Assembly: GCF_020483305.1 (NCBI RefSeq)
Contig: NZ_JACWAB010000005.1
Location: 1-64,000 of the forward strand
Length of the DNA: 64,000 nt
Origin: Arthrobacter sp. UM1
Lineage (GTDB): Bacteria > Actinomycetota > Actinomycetes > Actinomycetales > Micrococcaceae
Direction of reading: 5' to 3'
Part shown: positions 708-6,633 of the stretch, piece after piece
Position numbering within the stretch: the first letter of the stretch is position 1
Layout of the letters: the number at the start of each line of letters is the position of its first letter
Program-made: the position numbers and the translations under genes
The notes under the pieces: model-generated
The model's input: only the letters and a program-made list of their open reading frames with translations
The model's database searches: none
Told to the model about the DNA's origin: nothing

Positions 708-736
708 TTGACAGCCCCTTCCCACCGGACTAGCCT
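708..736 (+). promoter_or_regulatory. sigma70-type promoter of the peptide/ligase operon
   Basis: TTGACA (708-713), a 17-base spacer and TAGCCT (731-736) match the -35 and -10 boxes of a housekeeping promoter. Transcription would start near 743, leaving about 38 bases before the small ORF at 781, so that ORF would be the first gene of the message. Confidence 0.65.
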
Positions 737-780
737 CACAGCAACAGACAAGACAAAACACTCGTTAGCAAGAGGCGCGC

Positions 781-954
781 ATGTCCATCACAGCCCCGCT
801 CCCGCCCCTCGCCTGGGCCAAAACCGACTACCCCAACCCGGGCGCGGTTCTGGATTGGGCCCCTCAGCACTCTCTTGAATTTGCTCAGCGGCTGCCGGCG
901 CTCCTTCGCTCCGAGTCCGCCCTCGTCGCAGAGAGGGATTCTCACCATGAGTGA
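781..954 (+). CDS. 57-aa small ORF, candidate precursor or leader peptide
   Basis: ATG at 781 follows AAGAGG (six bases upstream) and a strong promoter. The frame ends with TGA 952-954, overlapping the ligase start (ATG 947) by eight bases, so translation of the two is probably coupled. The peptide has a Pro-rich start (MSITAPLPPL), a Trp/Tyr/Pro middle (WAKTDYPNP then GAVLDWAPQ) and a charged tail ending DSHHE. I do not recognise a family. It could be the substrate of the ATP-grasp enzyme, a regulatory leader peptide or a small partner protein. Existence is inferred from promoter, position and overlap; function is unknown. Confidence 0.5.
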   Translation: MSITAPLPPLAWAKTDYPNPGAVLDWAPQHSLEFAQRLPALLRSESALVAERDSHHE

Positions 955-2176
955 CCCCATCGACGTCGTCCTCTTCCGCTATTCACCTCGACCGGTCGAG
1001 CTCTGGCACCTGAATGATCTCAACGTGCGCATCCTGACCCTGGAGTCTGGGCGGGATCGGTACTTCACCGAGCCCAAGGTCGATGAGGAAAAGGTCACCT
1101 TCCTCGAGGACTTCGAGGTCCACACGCTCTTCCGGACGATCCGCTCAATTCGGGAGGAAGGGCCGATCCGGTCGATCTCCACCCTCGGTGAGGATGACAT
1201 GGACATCGCGGGCCTGCTCCAGGAATTCTTTGTCTCCGGCCTGTCGGATTTCGCCGTGGGCACCCTGTTCAAGGACAAGCTGCTCATGCGCGCGGCGCTC
1301 GAAGGCGTCGTGCCTCAGCCCAGCTTCCGTGGGCTCAGCGAATTCACCGGCACCCGTACCGACCTCATCGACGCCGGTTTCGGGATCATCAAGCCGCGGC
1401 GCAGTGCGGGCGCCCAGGGCGTCGCCCGGCTCGAGGACCTGACCGACGAGGAGTTCACCGCCCTGAACCTTCGGGAGCTGCTGGCCGAGAGCTTCGTTGA
1501 CACCCCTCGCATGGTGACCGGCGATGGCTTCGCAGTGGGCCACGAGATGCAGCGTTTCTGCGTCCACGAGTACGATGCCGGCGTCCTGAGCTCCTTGAAG
1601 GAGCGTCGGCACGGTATCGCTCTGGGCACGTCGCGCCTCTACGACGAGTCGGTCGAGACGGTGAAAACCCTGTTCGACCTGTCTTCGCGGGTGATCGAGA
1701 CCATCGGGAGCAGCACAAGGGTCACTCCGTTCCACTTTGAGTGGTTCGTCCCGGCCGAGGGAGACCCCGTCTTCTGTGAGGTGGGGCTTCGCTTCGGCGG
1801 CATGTCCATCCCTCGCATGGTCAGCTATGCCTTCGACTGCCCCCTGATCGAGGAGTACTGGGCTGCGATGTTCTCGGGCCGCAAGGCCGAGCAGCCTCTC
1901 GATCGAGACCACCTGGACATGCCAGTCCGACGCGCCATCTGCTACGGCCGCTACCGCCGCAGCGGCACGGTGGTCTCGGCTCCTGCTCGCGAGGACTTCC
2001 CGATGGCGCACAACGTATGGATCTGGGTGAAGGCAGGCGACGAAGGCGGTCGCGACGCCTCCGTTGTCAGCGACAACGCCGGCATGGTGGAACTCATCGG
2101 TGACAGCCATGAGGATGTCCTCGCGAAGCTGGCGATGGTCGAGGCCATCATGGACGAGAAGCTGGTCGTCGAATGA
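947..2176 (+). CDS. ATP-grasp carboxylate-amine ligase (L-amino-acid-ligase type)
   Basis: 409 aa from ATG 947; an in-frame start at 875 would run back through the small ORF and has no better ribosome site. ATP-grasp features in order: DKLLMRAALEGVVPQP (about 110-125, entry helix), FGIIKPRRSAGAQGV (about 145-159, ATP-binding Lys and Gly-rich loop), HFEW (about 263-266) and EVGLRFGGMSIP (about 278-289, metal-binding Glu and R-x-GG). This family joins a carboxylate to an amine through an acyl phosphate; relatives make dipeptides or add amino acids to peptides. It does not look like biotin carboxylase or PurK. It overlaps small ORFs at both ends and precedes an exporter, which suggests a secreted peptide-like product. 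Substrate unknown. Confidence 0.8.
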   Translation: MSDPIDVVLFRYSPRPVELWHLNDLNVRILTLESGRDRYFTEPKVDEEKVTFLEDFEVHTLFRTIRSIREEGPIRSISTLGEDDMDIAGLLQEFFVSGLSDFAVGTLFKDKLLMRAALEGVVPQPSFRGLSEFTGTRTDLIDAGFGIIKPRRSAGAQGVARLEDLTDEEFTALNLRELLAESFVDTPRMVTGDGFAVGHEMQRFCVHEYDAGVLSSLKERRHGIALGTSRLYDESVETVKTLFDLSSRVIETIGSSTRVTPFHFEWFVPAEGDPVFCEVGLRFGGMSIPRMVSYAFDCPLIEEYWAAMFSGRKAEQPLDRDHLDMPVRRAICYGRYRRSGTVVSAPAREDFPMAHNVWIWVKAGDEGGRDASVVSDNAGMVELIGDSHEDVLAKLAMVEAIMDEKLVVE

Positions 2177-2313
2177 CCGGCTCCCGCCAGATCCGGTTCC
2201 CCATCGCGGCCCGAGCCTCCAACGCCACCCTGGCTTGCCGCTTCCGCGACGACGACGTCGGAGTCCGTCATACCGCCGATCACGCCATGCTCCACGGATC
2301 ACTGCCTGCATGA
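2173..2313 (+). CDS. 46-aa small ORF between ligase and exporter
   Basis: ATG 2173 overlaps the ligase stop as ATGA, and its own TGA (2311-2313) overlaps the exporter ATG (2310) as ATGA. The frame exactly fills the gap between the two genes, which is hard to explain unless it is translated. The peptide is basic and mixed, with one Cys near the middle (TLACRFRDDDVGV) and four His, and it has no membrane segment. I recognise no family. It may be a second precursor peptide, a small partner protein, or a frame kept open only to carry ribosomes to the exporter. Confidence 0.45.
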   Translation: MTGSRQIRFPIAARASNATLACRFRDDDVGVRHTADHAMLHGSLPA

Positions 2314-3551
2314 CGACGGCGCTGAGATCTTTTGGGCGTGCTCCCTGGCTGATCGCCGCCATCGCTTTGTCGAAGGCGGGCACGCTGGCATACACGACGG
2401 TCATGCTGTGGGCGGTCAACCAGTACGCCGGCGCCGGCGGGGTAGGTCTTGTCAACGCGTTGGGCGGCCTGACGTCGGTGCTCGCCGGGATCTCCGCGAC
2501 GGTCTGGATCGATCGGTTCGACCGCCGAATGATCCTGCTGGTCCTCGATGGGATCACTGCGGCGTTGACCTTCCTCGCCGTGGGGGTCCTCGTGCTCACG
2601 CCATGGAATAACGTGACCGTGATCGCGGCCACGATTGCGATGGTTACTGCGGCGGCCGCCAGTCTCTATTCGCCGGCCAGTCGGTCGTTGGTGCCGGCGC
2701 TGGTTCCTCAGAGTTCGTTGGAGCAGTACAACAGCTTCTACACCTCCTTCACAGAGCTGTCGCGCGCGATCGGGCCGGCGCTCGGAACGATTCTGCTGGC
2801 AGTGGGAGGCTCTGATGCTTTCGCGCTGAGTCTGCTCGTCAACGGGCTCTCCTTCGCTTTCTCGTTCCTGTTCACCATGAACCTTCCAAGGGTGGAAGGG
2901 CACCGCGTCGAGGATCGGCGGCATGACCGGGCCTTCTCTGCGTACGCCTACCTTGCCGGCCAGCCTCATCTGCTCGGCGACCTGGCTGGTGCAATGGGCA
3001 TCAACTTCGCCCTCTCCAGCCTCACGTATGTACTGCTGGGGCGACTCGCCGAGACGGGCTCACCCGCTTCGATGTTCGGTCTCGCCCACTCGATCGAGGC
3101 GATCGGGGTGGTCGTCTCCGCGCTGCTCGCGGCGAGACTGGGGGACTCTCTTCGGCTGATGCGAGCCCCCCAGCTGCTGGTGCCGGTCGCCCTCAGCCTT
3201 CTGATCGGGCTGTTGGCCGGCCCCTGGACCGTGACGGCCGCGATCACCGCAGCCGCGATCCTGGTGACGTTCTTCAACATCGTGCTGTTCAGCAGGCTTC
3301 AGCGCGAGATTCCTCGGGAGATCATCGGCCGCGTCGTCGCCGTGGTCACAACCAGTTCAGCGGCGCTCATCCCGCTCGGGAACCTCGTGTTCGCCTTCCT
3401 CGCCTCCCGGGTGACCAGCAACACGCTCATCCTCATCACCTGCGCTGGGCTGGTCGCGCTGCGGTTCATCGCCGCGCACTTGGGCCGCCGAACCCTCAAG
3501 GCAGGATCACCTAGCCTGCAGAATGGGAGCGCAGGGGCGTCGACGTCGTGA
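2310..3551 (+). CDS. MFS exporter
   Basis: 413 aa with about twelve hydrophobic segments and the MFS loop motif DRFDRR between helices 2 and 3. The start at ATG 2310 (MTTALRSFGRAPW) is chosen because it puts helix 1 near the N-terminus and overlaps the upstream stop as ATGA; the frame is open further upstream but reads as non-membrane, Arg-rich sequence. The overall pattern resembles the drug and siderophore exporter branch (EntS-like), which is inference. Its place in the overlapping operon suggests it exports, or gives immunity to, the product made with the ATP-grasp ligase. Confidence 0.8.
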   Translation: MTTALRSFGRAPWLIAAIALSKAGTLAYTTVMLWAVNQYAGAGGVGLVNALGGLTSVLAGISATVWIDRFDRRMILLVLDGITAALTFLAVGVLVLTPWNNVTVIAATIAMVTAAAASLYSPASRSLVPALVPQSSLEQYNSFYTSFTELSRAIGPALGTILLAVGGSDAFALSLLVNGLSFAFSFLFTMNLPRVEGHRVEDRRHDRAFSAYAYLAGQPHLLGDLAGAMGINFALSSLTYVLLGRLAETGSPASMFGLAHSIEAIGVVVSALLAARLGDSLRLMRAPQLLVPVALSLLIGLLAGPWTVTAAITAAAILVTFFNIVLFSRLQREIPREIIGRVVAVVTTSSAALIPLGNLVFAFLASRVTSNTLILITCAGLVALRFIAAHLGRRTLKAGSPSLQNGSAGASTS

Positions 3552-3587
3552 AGCGCCTTCAATCGGACATGGTCTGGAGTCTCTATC

Positions 3588-4694
3588 GTGTCGCGTGATC
3601 AAGACAGCTTCAGCTTCATCGAGGGCTGGGCTGAATGCGCGGGGGTCCACTGGGCGCCATCCCCGCCAACCCTGCGGGACGGATGGTTCTTGGGGTCGGC
3701 ACTGCAGTTGTACGACCTCAAGACGCTCGACGTCCCGAAGGGGATGTGCCGGTTCGTCGACACGATCTGGACCCGGCACATCGATCTCCTGCCGCCTAAC
3801 CTTTACTGGGAACTCCACAACGAGCTCTTCCACTCCATCTGGACGGGTCCCGCGCCGGCTTTCGCAGCGGTGGCCGAGTTCGTCGCCGGGCTTCGCTCGG
3901 CCTTCTCCATCGCCGCCGACGACCTGGTCCTCGTGAGCGAAGACGGTGATCTCTCCCGCATCCTCAATCCGGGGTCCGTCGTGCCTGCAAGCGTGCCGTT
4001 CGTCTTGAGCGGCGTGAAGGTGGGTGCCTACGCCAAGTTGTTCGTGCGTCGTCCAGACGGAACGTTTCCCCTGCTGGACCTGGTTGTCTTCGAATTCGGC
4101 GGCGGCGTCTGCACCGAGATTCACCTGAACGTGGCGCACGTCCGCGTGGCTGCGGGAGAGATCCCCACCATCTACTCGATGGCCTCCAAGCGGCCCACGA
4201 TGGTCGCGCTGCGCCTGTCCGAGCAGCAATCCGCCTTGGCACGCAGCTCGCGAACGGTGCGAATCATCGCCTTGGCCGATGCGCTCCGCCACGCATCCGC
4301 GGAGGGCGCCCAGTTCTCGGGCACCAGGGCCGGCCACATCTACAAGCGGATGGCCAAGTCGTTGGCGGAGGACCTCATCGTGACTGAGAACGAGGGTGCG
4401 CTCGACACGCTTGGGCTTGCTGCTGGGGCGACGGCCTTCGTCGGGCGGGAGATGGACCAGATCCTACGGCTCGATGTGAACAAGCTGCGGTCGATGGCCC
4501 CCGAATACCGACGCGAGACTCTCGGGGTCTCCGACGCTCGCCTGGACGTCGCGGCCGGTTCTGCTGCGGATCCTGCGATCCGCCTCCCCGCAGCCAGAGC
4601 CCGCTACTTCACCGACCTGCCTCTGCTCGGGGCACGGCCTCGGGATGAGATCGAAGCCAATCTCGCAGAGCTCGTCGCTGCCCGCACGAACTGA
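3588..4694 (+). CDS. unrecognised 368-aa protein of the ligase operon
   Basis: GTG 3588 has GGAG eight bases upstream; the gap to the exporter stop is 36 bases, so it is probably co-transcribed. The protein is soluble, with no signal or membrane segment. Notable stretches are WAECAGVHWAPSPPTLRDGW near the N-terminus, LLPPNLYWELHNELFHS (about 65-80), a strand-rich middle with DLVVFEFGGGVCTEIHLNV (about 165-183), and a helical C-terminal third. I recognise no family. The Cys, His and Glu around CTEIH could bind metal or be catalytic, but this is a guess. Position suggests a biosynthetic or self-protection role. Confidence 0.7.
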   Translation: MSRDQDSFSFIEGWAECAGVHWAPSPPTLRDGWFLGSALQLYDLKTLDVPKGMCRFVDTIWTRHIDLLPPNLYWELHNELFHSIWTGPAPAFAAVAEFVAGLRSAFSIAADDLVLVSEDGDLSRILNPGSVVPASVPFVLSGVKVGAYAKLFVRRPDGTFPLLDLVVFEFGGGVCTEIHLNVAHVRVAAGEIPTIYSMASKRPTMVALRLSEQQSALARSSRTVRIIALADALRHASAEGAQFSGTRAGHIYKRMAKSLAEDLIVTENEGALDTLGLAAGATAFVGREMDQILRLDVNKLRSMAPEYRRETLGVSDARLDVAAGSAADPAIRLPAARARYFTDLPLLGARPRDEIEANLAELVAARTN

Positions 4695-5220
4695 GGCAGG
4701 GAGTCATGAAGACCTGATGCTGGGCGGCGGCTTGATGGCGCCCGGCGTGGCGAACAGTCTCACCCGACGCCATGACGTCACGGCGCCCAGTCTATTTCTA
4801 GAGCCGGATGCCCGGGCGCTCGAGGTGATCCACGTTCTCGACTCAGTGGGAGAAGGTCCTCACGCGGCGGTCATGTCTTGCGTAGCGGGCGGTCCCCGTC
4901 GCCGCGAATTCCGGAGTGGTGAACACATGCGGAAGCTGAGCCAGTTGGACGGTGACACAGACACCCGCCTCGCTCAGATCCGTCAGGAGTATGAGCGCCG
5001 CATGGACGCTACGTCTGCCGCGCTGGACTTCTCAGCGGTCACTCGTGCGGGTCGGCCTGAACGCGGCTCTTGCACACGTGCGGTAGAGAATGAGGTCTCT
5101 CCGCGGTCCACCCCTCCCACAAGGCCAGGTTTCTGCCAAGACAAATCACTACACCGTCCCGGAGATACAGAGTTGGCGAAGTTCTTCGCACATCTGAAGT
5201 GAGAGTGAAATTGGAAACGC
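4695..5220 (+). other. gene-poor stretch, possible gene remnant
   Basis: A frame is open through 5202 (ATG options 4645, 4927), but most of it does not look like protein. The part from 4927 (MRKLSQLDGDTDTRLAQIR) is helical and has GGAG upstream, so a short real or decayed gene is possible. No terminator is obvious between the 368-aa gene and the second MFS gene. Confidence 0.3.
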
Positions 5221-6633
5221 GTGAATAAGCAAGAAAAACACCTCCCAGGGGTCCCCCGGGAAGCCAAGCTCGTCATCGCCATCGGCCTGCTCGAGGCATT
5301 CGCCGCGAACTTCTCCATGATGGCCTCCTTCATCTGGCTCACCACGCGCTTCCTTCCGCAGACCCAGTGGGACCCGGCCACCGCGTCCACCCTGTTTCTG
5401 GCGGTGACGGGGCTTTCGATCTTCCTTCTCATGAAACAGGTCGGCTCCCTTGTGGACCGCTTCAAACCGCATGGGCTGTTCCTCTCCGTCCAGGCCGCGA
5501 ATCTCATCATGCTGCCCTTGATGGCGCTGACCATCGCCCTGGCCGATCCTCAGCGCCCATGGCTCACCCTGGCCGAGCTGTTCGTGTTGGACCTGCTCAT
5601 CTCCGCCCGCGCCTCCACGTACAACAGCGCCGTGGATGTGCTCATCGCTCACGTCGTCCCCAAGGAGCACCGGGCCGACTACTACTCGCTGGACTTTCGC
5701 ATCGGCCTCATCGCCGTCTTCCTCGCACCGGCGGCCGCATCCTACGCCGTGGAGCAGTCTGTGTACCTGGGCCTGGGCATCGCCGCCGCAATCACCGGGC
5801 TCAGTCTCGCGCTGCTGCTCACCCCGCCGTACCGCGGCCTGGAGGCCCTCTCCTACGGGCGCCGGGTCTCCTGGACGCCGCGCCTGGCTTGGCGAGAACC
5901 GCTCACAGCCCTGCGCCGCGTCGTCGCGCTCTTGAGGATCACGCGCGGACGTTCGCCAGATCCATCCACCGCTCCCGCGCCCCCGGCCAAACCCCGCCGG
6001 GGCACCCAGCGCAGGGGTCTGCGGTCCCTGAGGTACGTGAAGCACATCGGGATCATCCTCACGCTGATGACCACCGAGGCCTTGGGCAACAGAGCCCGCG
6101 AGTCCTTTGACATCTACTTCGTCACGGACACTCTCGGACGGACCGCGGGCGACTTCGGCCTGCTCGCCGTCGCCCTCTCCGTTGGGCTGACGTTCGGGTC
6201 TTTCGCCGCCGGATGGACGCGGCGGAAGATCCGCTGGCGGCTCTGGCCGAGCGCCTGCTACATGGGATTCGGGCTGTGCTTTGCCGCGAAAGGGCTGGCC
6301 CCGACGTGGGAGCTGGTGCTGCTGACCACCGCCGGGGAAGGGCTCTGCCTGGGCCTGATGTCCGGGATCTTCCAGGCCGCCAAGGTCCAGTTCACGCCAC
6401 GCGCGCTCCTGGGCAGCACGTCGGCGGCTCTGGGGGCGGTGTTCCAGGGTGTGTCGACGGCGGGGCTGGCCTTGTGGGCCGCGTACGCCTGGGTCGGCTC
6501 CCGCCTCGGCGAGGAGTTCATGGGCGAGACGGGGTACAGGACGGCATTCGTCGTCGGCGGCGGACTCATCGCGTTGGCCGGCGCGCTCAGTCCGAGGTTC
6601 TACGCGGCGGCGCCGTGGAGGAAGGGGGCCTAG
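5221..6633 (+). CDS. MFS transporter, second exporter of the accessory block
   Basis: 470 aa from GTG 5221, with GGAAA about five bases upstream. The first six membrane helices are followed by a long basic, Pro-rich cytoplasmic loop (about residues 215-265, including DPSTAPAPPAKPRRG), then six more helices from YVKHIGIILTLMTTEALGN. The pattern is MFS; the substrate cannot be told. It ends at a strong hairpin, so it closes the block that starts at the 708 promoter. It is not closely similar to the exporter at 2310-3551. An export or immunity role with the ligase operon is inference. Confidence 0.75.
   Translation: MNKQEKHLPGVPREAKLVIAIGLLEAFAANFSMMASFIWLTTRFLPQTQWDPATASTLFLAVTGLSIFLLMKQVGSLVDRFKPHGLFLSVQAANLIMLPLMALTIALADPQRPWLTLAELFVLDLLISARASTYNSAVDVLIAHVVPKEHRADYYSLDFRIGLIAVFLAPAAASYAVEQSVYLGLGIAAAITGLSLALLLTPPYRGLEALSYGRRVSWTPRLAWREPLTALRRVVALLRITRGRSPDPSTAPAPPAKPRRGTQRRGLRSLRYVKHIGIILTLMTTEALGNRARESFDIYFVTDTLGRTAGDFGLLAVALSVGLTFGSFAAGWTRRKIRWRLWPSACYMGFGLCFAAKGLAPTWELVLLTTAGEGLCLGLMSGIFQAAKVQFTPRALLGSTSAALGAVFQGVSTAGLALWAAYAWVGSRLGEEFMGETGYRTAFVVGGGLIALAGALSPRFYAAAPWRKGA

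Follow-up and report, generated by a model that had tools for sequence, protein, structure and literature searches.

The window analysed here, a stretch of 64,000 nucleotides from Arthrobacter sp. UM1, begins at the edge of contig 13 in a 2.39 Mb genome of 17 contigs. Near that edge, at positions 708–4694, lies an operon of five open reading frames (ORFs) encoding 57, 409, 46, 413 and 368 aa, the first four overlapping successively by 8, 4 and 4 bases and the last following after a 36-base gap. The new element of this operon is a degenerate relative of alanyl-tRNA synthetase (AlaRS) paired with an L-amino-acid-ligase-type enzyme, rather than its small ORFs. An earlier note, made from the sequence alone, had given the coordinates and overlapping junctions, all of which were found again:

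708–736, + strand: promoter-like sequence TTGACA-N17-TAGCCT, by motif match
781–954, + strand: 57-aa ORF with AGAGG upstream, overlapping the ligase start by 8 bases
947–2176, + strand: ATP-grasp ligase of the L-amino-acid-ligase type, 409 aa, ATG start, by Foldseek and profile
2173–2313, + strand: 46-aa ORF between the ligase gene and the next gene, with a 4-base overlap at either end
2310–3551, + strand: putative exporter of the major facilitator superfamily (MFS), 413 aa, by Pfam MFS_1
3588–4694, + strand: truncated, divergent AlaRS-like protein, 368 aa, GTG start, GGAG upstream, predicted by profiles via intermediate sequences

Taken alone, the 368-aa protein has no match in Pfam, NCBIfam or PDB, and the earlier note left it unrecognised; it can now be placed through intermediate sequences. 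A homologue (23% identity, E 4e-28) is encoded in the ligase cluster of Atopobacter sp. AH10, where two genes separate it from the ligase gene, and both proteins are related to a set of proteins of 360–430 aa encoded mostly next to ATP-grasp ligases. A profile of nine such AlaRS-like proteins, built without the window and Atopobacter sequences, gives the window protein 33.7 bits (E 2.4e-9, 2240 sequences). In hhalign, the window and Atopobacter proteins together match the nine at 98.1% (E 8e-14), and the nine match housekeeping AlaRS at 99.5% (E 2.9e-22). Because only this transitive route reaches AlaRS, controls were run: the best of 2000 shuffles scored 0.6 bits against the nine-protein profile, a reversed profile gave 0.4% in hhalign and an unrelated ATP-grasp profile gave 0.1%. 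An earlier form of the route with two relatives was weaker (83.4%, E 8.5e-6).

The intermediate proteins lie at graded distances from AlaRS. Over 12 members of the set, named here by locus, the Pfam AlaRS model passes its cut-off in four (L144, L145, L146 and L148; E 1.9e-27 to 1.9e-14), falls below it in three (L048, L053 and L143) and misses five, among them L050, L051, L052 and the window protein. L144 reaches AlaRS directly by tblastn, with a best E of 2e-19 over 88% of its length among the 20 plasmid records listed of 50 matched. Profile A7, which combines the window protein with seven relatives and is driven mainly by the latter, matched 15 PDB sequences, all of them AlaRS (best E 1.9e-21). 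Of 98 Actinomycetes genomes, 86 also match it, and most of the open frames concerned are about 880–1124 aa long, the size of AlaRS; its matches in the window's own genome, on contig 9, overlap the PF01411 AlaRS hit in an open frame of 913 aa. A similar profile, A6, found matches at E 0.01 in 136 of the 398 genomes of Atopobacter's class, again mostly in frames of AlaRS length.

The AlphaFold model of the 368-aa protein is poor (mean pLDDT 46), and its structural ranking is used as supporting evidence only. VIA-align places AlaRS first (Z 8.5, root-mean-square deviation (rmsd) about 9, 197–228 residues aligned), and all 50 listed rows (Z 6.3–8.5, rmsd up to 9) are, by their titles, proteins of the class II synthetase fold. 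Foldseek returned nothing at E 0.001 or better for the same model; the PolG2 accessory subunit, a synthetase-like protein, and AlaRS head its list. Several lines of comparison together, none of them alone, firmly predict a divergent, truncated AlaRS-like protein. It aligns with the N-terminal part of AlaRS, and its 368 residues leave no room for the editing domain and the C-terminal domain of the 913-aa enzyme.

The ligase is firmly assigned to the ATP-grasp fold. Pfam gave only a sub-threshold ATP-grasp_4 hit, and a three-member ligase profile (A1) searched against PDB at E 0.01 had a single match, the L-amino-acid ligase RizA (4wd3; E 4.4e-8, 35.5 bits). Foldseek of the ligase model, also poor (mean pLDDT 52), ranked RizA first (E 1.2e-12), BL00235 (3vot) second (E 4.2e-11) and BacD (3vmm) fifth. 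For the same model, the 50 rows listed by VIA-align show other enzymes of the ATP-grasp fold (Z 11.8 and below), and because these occupy the top of that ranking, placement in the L-amino-acid-ligase subgroup rests on sequence and Foldseek. A single-sequence phmmer search of PDB placed human TAB1 above RizA (E 1e-4 versus 0.024); we took the TAB1 match as chance, because the profile search yields RizA alone. Macrocyclases of the MdnB/MdnC group are absent from the 50 listed rows of both Foldseek and VIA-align, an absence that excludes nothing. Relatives of the ligase in the species collection come from Atopobacter sp. AH10 (36%, best segment) and Streptococcus merionis (31%). The neighbouring MFS protein passes the Pfam MFS_1 cut-off (E 7.4e-19), stays under the cut-offs of the NCBIfam models TIGR00900 (E 1e-27) and EntS (E 8.4e-15), and resembles the MFS protein encoded beside the ligase relative in S. 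merionis (E 4e-12). The carboxylate-amine ligase adjoining an exporter, as the earlier note read these two genes, thus stands, and the ligase is nearest to the L-amino-acid ligases RizA and BL00235, a type that the note had named among others.

The pairing of an AlaRS-like gene with an ATP-grasp gene recurs. We compared 13 AlaRS-like loci (the window, L008, L048, L050–L053 and L143–L148) in stretches of about 8 to 19.5 kb. An ATP-grasp gene lies in the same stretch at 11 of them, none being recognised at L143 and L147, and an MFS gene was recognised at seven (the window, L048, L050–L053 and L147). Within the window's own ligase group, six of eight loci carry an AlaRS-like gene, the exceptions being L009 of S. 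merionis and L049. The L050 protein is counted as AlaRS-like; it is missed by profile A7 at E 0.001 and matches the L051 protein at E 4e-25. The Atopobacter contig ends 1.3 kb past its ligase gene. Neighbouring genes vary: an NAD-binding dehydrogenase and a nucleotidyltransferase at L008, a HAD hydrolase and a hexapeptide transferase at L009, a GSCFA protein at L051 and a CYTH protein at L053. Such variation fits different products made from one core. The counts leave out genomes G777, G690 and G751 (three of the 29 genomes of one scan), a second place in G877, and eight of ten other genomes of the window's own phylum with a ligase match, G135 and G372 being the two taken with their flanks. 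Also left out are the plasmid matches H1, H3 and H6, L047 (no ligase ORF recognised), L055, L140–L142 and L149 (not ligase loci), two weak 288-aa frames (G1221 and G1054), and L165–L167, which form a different, more AlaRS-like short group.

Several of these loci deserve mention in their own right. The proteins of L165 (2129–3313), L166 (8542–9708) and L167 (3227–4441) are actinobacterial stand-alone AlaRS-like proteins of 388–404 aa with, by eye, a near-canonical motif 3; no ligase or MFS gene was recognised in the stretches examined around them. L147 (8458–9724) and L143 (8592–11263) are decaying AlaRS-like loci, the L147 gene being broken, and both have a radical-SAM-like neighbour in fragments (by eye). 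The AlaRS-like gene of L148 (5679–17603) belongs to a larger cluster, which also contains two ATP-grasp genes and genes that by eye are of the sugar-nucleotide and nucleotidyltransferase kinds. L049 (8755–17670) holds a ligase relative without an AlaRS-like gene, together with two dCTP-deaminase-like and two carbamoyltransferase-like genes (by eye), and its product is perhaps of the nucleoside type. In one genome of the window's own family, two distant ATP-grasp genes at L136 (6856–10602) overlap an MFS gene, with no AlaRS-like gene recognised.

Active-site residues were assigned by alignment with housekeeping AlaRS, using 11 AlaRS-like rows. The motif 2 arginine is Tyr73 in the window protein, and arginine occupies that column in none of the 11 rows; by eye, L053 and L143 have an arginine one residue ahead of it. 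The motif 3 arginine is replaced by His184 in the window protein and by leucine in its Atopobacter relative. In the alanine site, the asparagine of EIWNLV has become Asp164 and the aspartate of IDTGLG has become Glu177, with glutamate in this column only in the window and Atopobacter rows (two of 11). In the tRNA-recognition segment, the glycine of GYVLRR is present in eight rows, including the window protein, and a basic residue in all 11. In the window protein the asparagine of this segment is replaced by Gly245 and a later aspartate by Glu310, positions that correspond to the G3:U70 readers of tRNA-Ala. Canonical AlaRS function was considered and rejected, given the loss of the motif 2 and motif 3 arginines and of the alanine-site Asn and Asp, the length of 368 aa and the genome's own 913-aa AlaRS.

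The closest functional parallel is AcmF of ascamycin biosynthesis in Streptomyces sp. 80H647. In the accessible part of its description (PMC12945691), AcmF is a truncated AlaRS-like protein with only the aminoacylation and tRNA-recognition domains; most residues for ATP and alanine activation are missing, N219Q and D232E changes are present, and the Asp-plus-Asn G3:U70 reader is absent. The same text names Glu232 as essential and Ala-tRNA-Ala as the alanine donor. Asp164 and Glu177 of the window protein are spaced 13 residues apart, like AcmF positions 219 and 232, and from this spacing we infer that they occupy the same positions. The window protein thus resembles AcmF, as far as the latter is described there, in its truncation, the loss of ATP-site residues, an Asp-to-Glu change, a replaced asparagine and a setting in a biosynthetic cluster. 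The two differ in that AcmF acylates a nucleoside sulfamate and the ascamycin cluster, by the same partial account, also holds a full AlaRS, whereas the window protein is partnered with an ATP-grasp ligase and an MFS gene. By analogy with the published description, the window protein may work like AcmF.

We consider it moderately probable, at a little better than an even chance, that the operon makes and exports a short peptide by combining ATP-grasp ligation with aminoacyl-tRNA-dependent acylation by the degenerate AlaRS. The ATP-grasp enzyme would use ATP to link one amino acid to a second one or to another carboxylate. The 368-aa protein, a degenerate AlaRS predicted to retain the aminoacylation and tRNA-recognition parts and no longer to make an aminoacyl-adenylate, would take a charged tRNA as donor and pass the amino acid on to an amine, that of the ligase product or of a building block, as AcmF does with its own acceptor. 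The MFS protein would then send the product out; the order of the two bonds, the substrates, the product and the direction of transport are all putative. With greater reserve, as something short of an even chance, the same scheme may represent an undescribed mode of peptide assembly free of non-ribosomal peptide synthetases across Bacillota and Actinomycetota, in which an ATP-grasp bond formed with free amino acids is combined with an ATP-free, AlaRS-derived bond from charged tRNA and with MFS export; the window operon would be its smallest form seen.

A number of results weigh against the preferred reading, in which a degenerate AlaRS uses charged tRNA beside a ligase. Neither the 368-aa protein nor the profile of it with its Atopobacter relative matches AlaRS directly, the window protein scored just 6.2 bits with an earlier five-relative profile, and both AlphaFold models are of low quality. 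The motif 3 arginine is retained in the other nine of the 11 rows, so that most relatives might still bind ATP, and with the presumed G3:U70 readers lost the tRNA used by the window protein is not predictable. Seven of the 13 AlaRS-like loci, the window included, were reached through the ligase, which inflates the count of 11; of the six that were reached through the AlaRS-like gene (L143–L148) four have an ATP-grasp gene, none being recognised in the stretches examined of L143 and of L147, where the AlaRS-like gene is broken. From the ligase side, an AlaRS-like gene was found at seven of 36 loci and went undetected at 29, so the ligase family can do without such a partner.

Retention of the motif 3 arginine by most rows, together with the class II synthetase fold, could mean that the AlaRS-like protein has kept the ability to use ATP for activating a free amino acid, either to ligate it independently of tRNA or to load it onto a carrier, and amino acid:carrier protein ligases appear as a function of AlaRS paralogues in the accessible part of PMC9437257. 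We judge this unlikely, because the motif 2 arginine is absent from all 11 rows, the motif 3 arginine is lost in the window protein and in the relative closest to it, and the features of the tRNA-recognition segment persist. Loading of a carrier protein was rejected on the loss of the arginines and because Pfam and NCBIfam detect no carrier protein among the five ORFs.

The small ORFs could point to another product, a ribosomal precursor or scaffold encoded by the 57-aa ORF, the 46-aa ORF or both, modified by the ligase, possibly extended from aminoacyl-tRNA and exported. The overlaps of 4–8 bases, the common promoter and the ribosome-binding-site-like sequence ahead of the 57-aa ORF agree with this, and PEARL enzymes add amino acids from aminoacyl-tRNA onto peptides according to the accessible text of PMC11962472. 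Codon statistics, trained on 30 genes of the same window chosen by GC content at third codon positions (GC3), give own-frame log-odds per codon of −0.05 for the 57-aa and 0.15 for the 46-aa ORF, each the highest of its six frames, compared with an average of 0.54 for coding chunks of 50 codons (5% point −0.14) and of −0.30 for 41 chance small ORFs (95% point 0.27), so that both fall between real genes and chance ORFs. By the same measure the ligase (0.43), MFS (0.21) and 368-aa (0.22) genes are positive in their own frames and negative in every other. Neither small ORF has a domain match in Pfam or NCBIfam. The earlier note had named recurrence of the same small ORFs beside homologues as support for its reading and had mentioned graspetides, and neither was borne out: among 7748 ORFs of 20–120 aa in 41 related loci (35 included for the ligase and six for the AlaRS-like gene) the best match had an E of 1.1 and no precursor recurs beside the ligase, while a search of the window recovers each peptide itself with an E of at most 1e-29. 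The small ORFs were accordingly rejected as a defining feature, and with a ligase nearest to enzymes that act on free amino acids we regard the ribosomal-peptide explanation as quite improbable.

Ligase and MFS genes overlap directly at L046, L050, L051 and L052 and lie 54 bases apart at L048; the wider gaps at L009 (240 bases, with a 37-aa ORF), L045 (228 bases, 21 aa) and L053 (424 bases, 25 and 48 aa) hold unrelated ORFs. The 46-aa ORF may couple translation to the MFS gene; by eye, no Shine-Dalgarno sequence is obvious at the start of the latter.

Synthetase paralogues often lose catalysis, and the AlaRS-like protein might instead be a self-protection decoy or regulator directed against an AlaRS-inhibiting product that the ligase makes alone. 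A second AlaRS of the ascamycin system, AcmD, resists the product more than the canonical enzyme does, as the accessible part of PMC12945691 reports; yet AcmD charges tRNA, whereas the window protein lacks the catalytic arginines and should therefore be unable to replace AlaRS. The related genes lie mostly beside ligase genes, which a biosynthetic role fits at least equally well, and we hold a protective role to be rather improbable. Housekeeping or salvage of dipeptides or amino acids without a secreted metabolite is very unlikely: sequence cannot tell the substrate or direction of the MFS protein, but the genes occur very patchily and their neighbours differ among related loci.

This patchiness is evident in the window's own phylum, where, over 396 genomes, a narrow profile of the 368-aa protein matches its own genome only and the ligase profile matches just ten others, all distant (best 49 bits). 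A scan of viral contigs for the ligase and the 368-aa protein found no relatives, and neither the 368-aa protein nor its Atopobacter relative had a tblastn match among plasmids. In a 25-row ligase tree, built without RizA and BacD, the window sequence falls inside a nine-row group with support of 100/100. The other eight rows come from Atopobacter, S. merionis and genomes belonging to the order of Atopobacter, whereas all six actinobacterial rows fall outside this group; support within the group is 81–92 except for one pair, and the window sequence is flagged as a long branch. Transfer across phyla, in one direction or the other, is likely on this evidence, because the ligase groups with Lactobacillales-type proteins and not with the actinobacterial sequences found. 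We conclude that this is probably a horizontally acquired natural-product operon, and the suggestion of transfer in the earlier note gains support as likely.

Among known enzymes, those nearest to the ligase are the L-amino-acid ligases RizA, which is the nearest solved sequence, BL00235 and BacD, all three of which are among the top Foldseek matches; BacD reportedly works together with an MFS gene, bacE. The window ligase differs from RizA in scoring only 35.5 bits and in its grouping with Lactobacillales-type proteins, and an AlaRS-like partner of an L-amino-acid ligase was not met among the literature matches listed, in the parts accessible. PEARLs, GNAT-fold transferases and SbzA use charged tRNA as a non-ribosomal amino-acid donor in the accessible account (PMC12945691), as proposed for the window protein, but have LanB-like, GNAT and IleRS-like folds, respectively, whereas the window protein would be AlaRS-derived. 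Graspetide clusters share an ATP-grasp ligase, small ORFs and, among their exporters, MFS proteins (PMC8939145, in its accessible part); the window operon differs in having no recurring precursor and a ligase nearest to dipeptide ligases. Class I synthetase-like proteins occur with ATP-grasp genes, according to the text available of PMC2922099. Literature searches joining a synthetase with ATP-grasp or amino-acid ligases found the pairing undescribed among the matches listed, with subscription journals mostly outside their scope, and a search for 'AlaRS' with 'ATP-grasp' returned no paper; the earlier statement that this gene set matched no known system agrees with the lack of a description among those matches.

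In the literature examined, as far as accessible, AcmF is the one known case of a truncated AlaRS-like natural-product enzyme that uses charged tRNA. The related genes described here come from the order and class of Atopobacter and from the present actinobacterium, and most of them have an ATP-grasp ligase gene beside them; since the Pfam AlaRS model passes only four of 12 members, many such genes may lie unannotated. If charged tRNA is used, the pairing would offer a way to search for small peptide pathways that have escaped recognition, and its proteins would be testable candidates for the transition from synthetase to peptide-bond-forming enzyme.

The promoter-like sequence, called a clear promoter in the earlier note, is present. 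TTGACA-N17-TANNNT has a single match in the 64 kb (708–736; 0.05 expected, and five of 100 shuffles contain one), but it goes unreported in a strict sigma-70 scan, TAGCCT agreeing with TATAAT at three of six positions. The lower GC content noted before is real (0.648 in the operon versus 0.681 in the whole window), though the flank at 1–1000 is likewise low (0.653). Upstream of the operon, a 20-pair inverted repeat at 370–417 is probably the terminator of the preceding gene, cell-wall-hydrolase-like by eye; the scan found four terminator-like sites against 3.4 expected, which is chance level. Downstream, roughly 500 bases (4695–5220) separate the 368-aa gene from the next MFS gene and are covered by an ORF at 4645–5202 that is possibly a remnant, with a GC3 of 0.65 versus 0.82–0.88 in the surrounding genes. 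That second MFS-type gene (5221–6633) has a relative in each of the two other genomes of the genus (84% over residues 261–470 in one, 44% over most of the length in the other) and for this reason seems to be resident genus content outside the operon.

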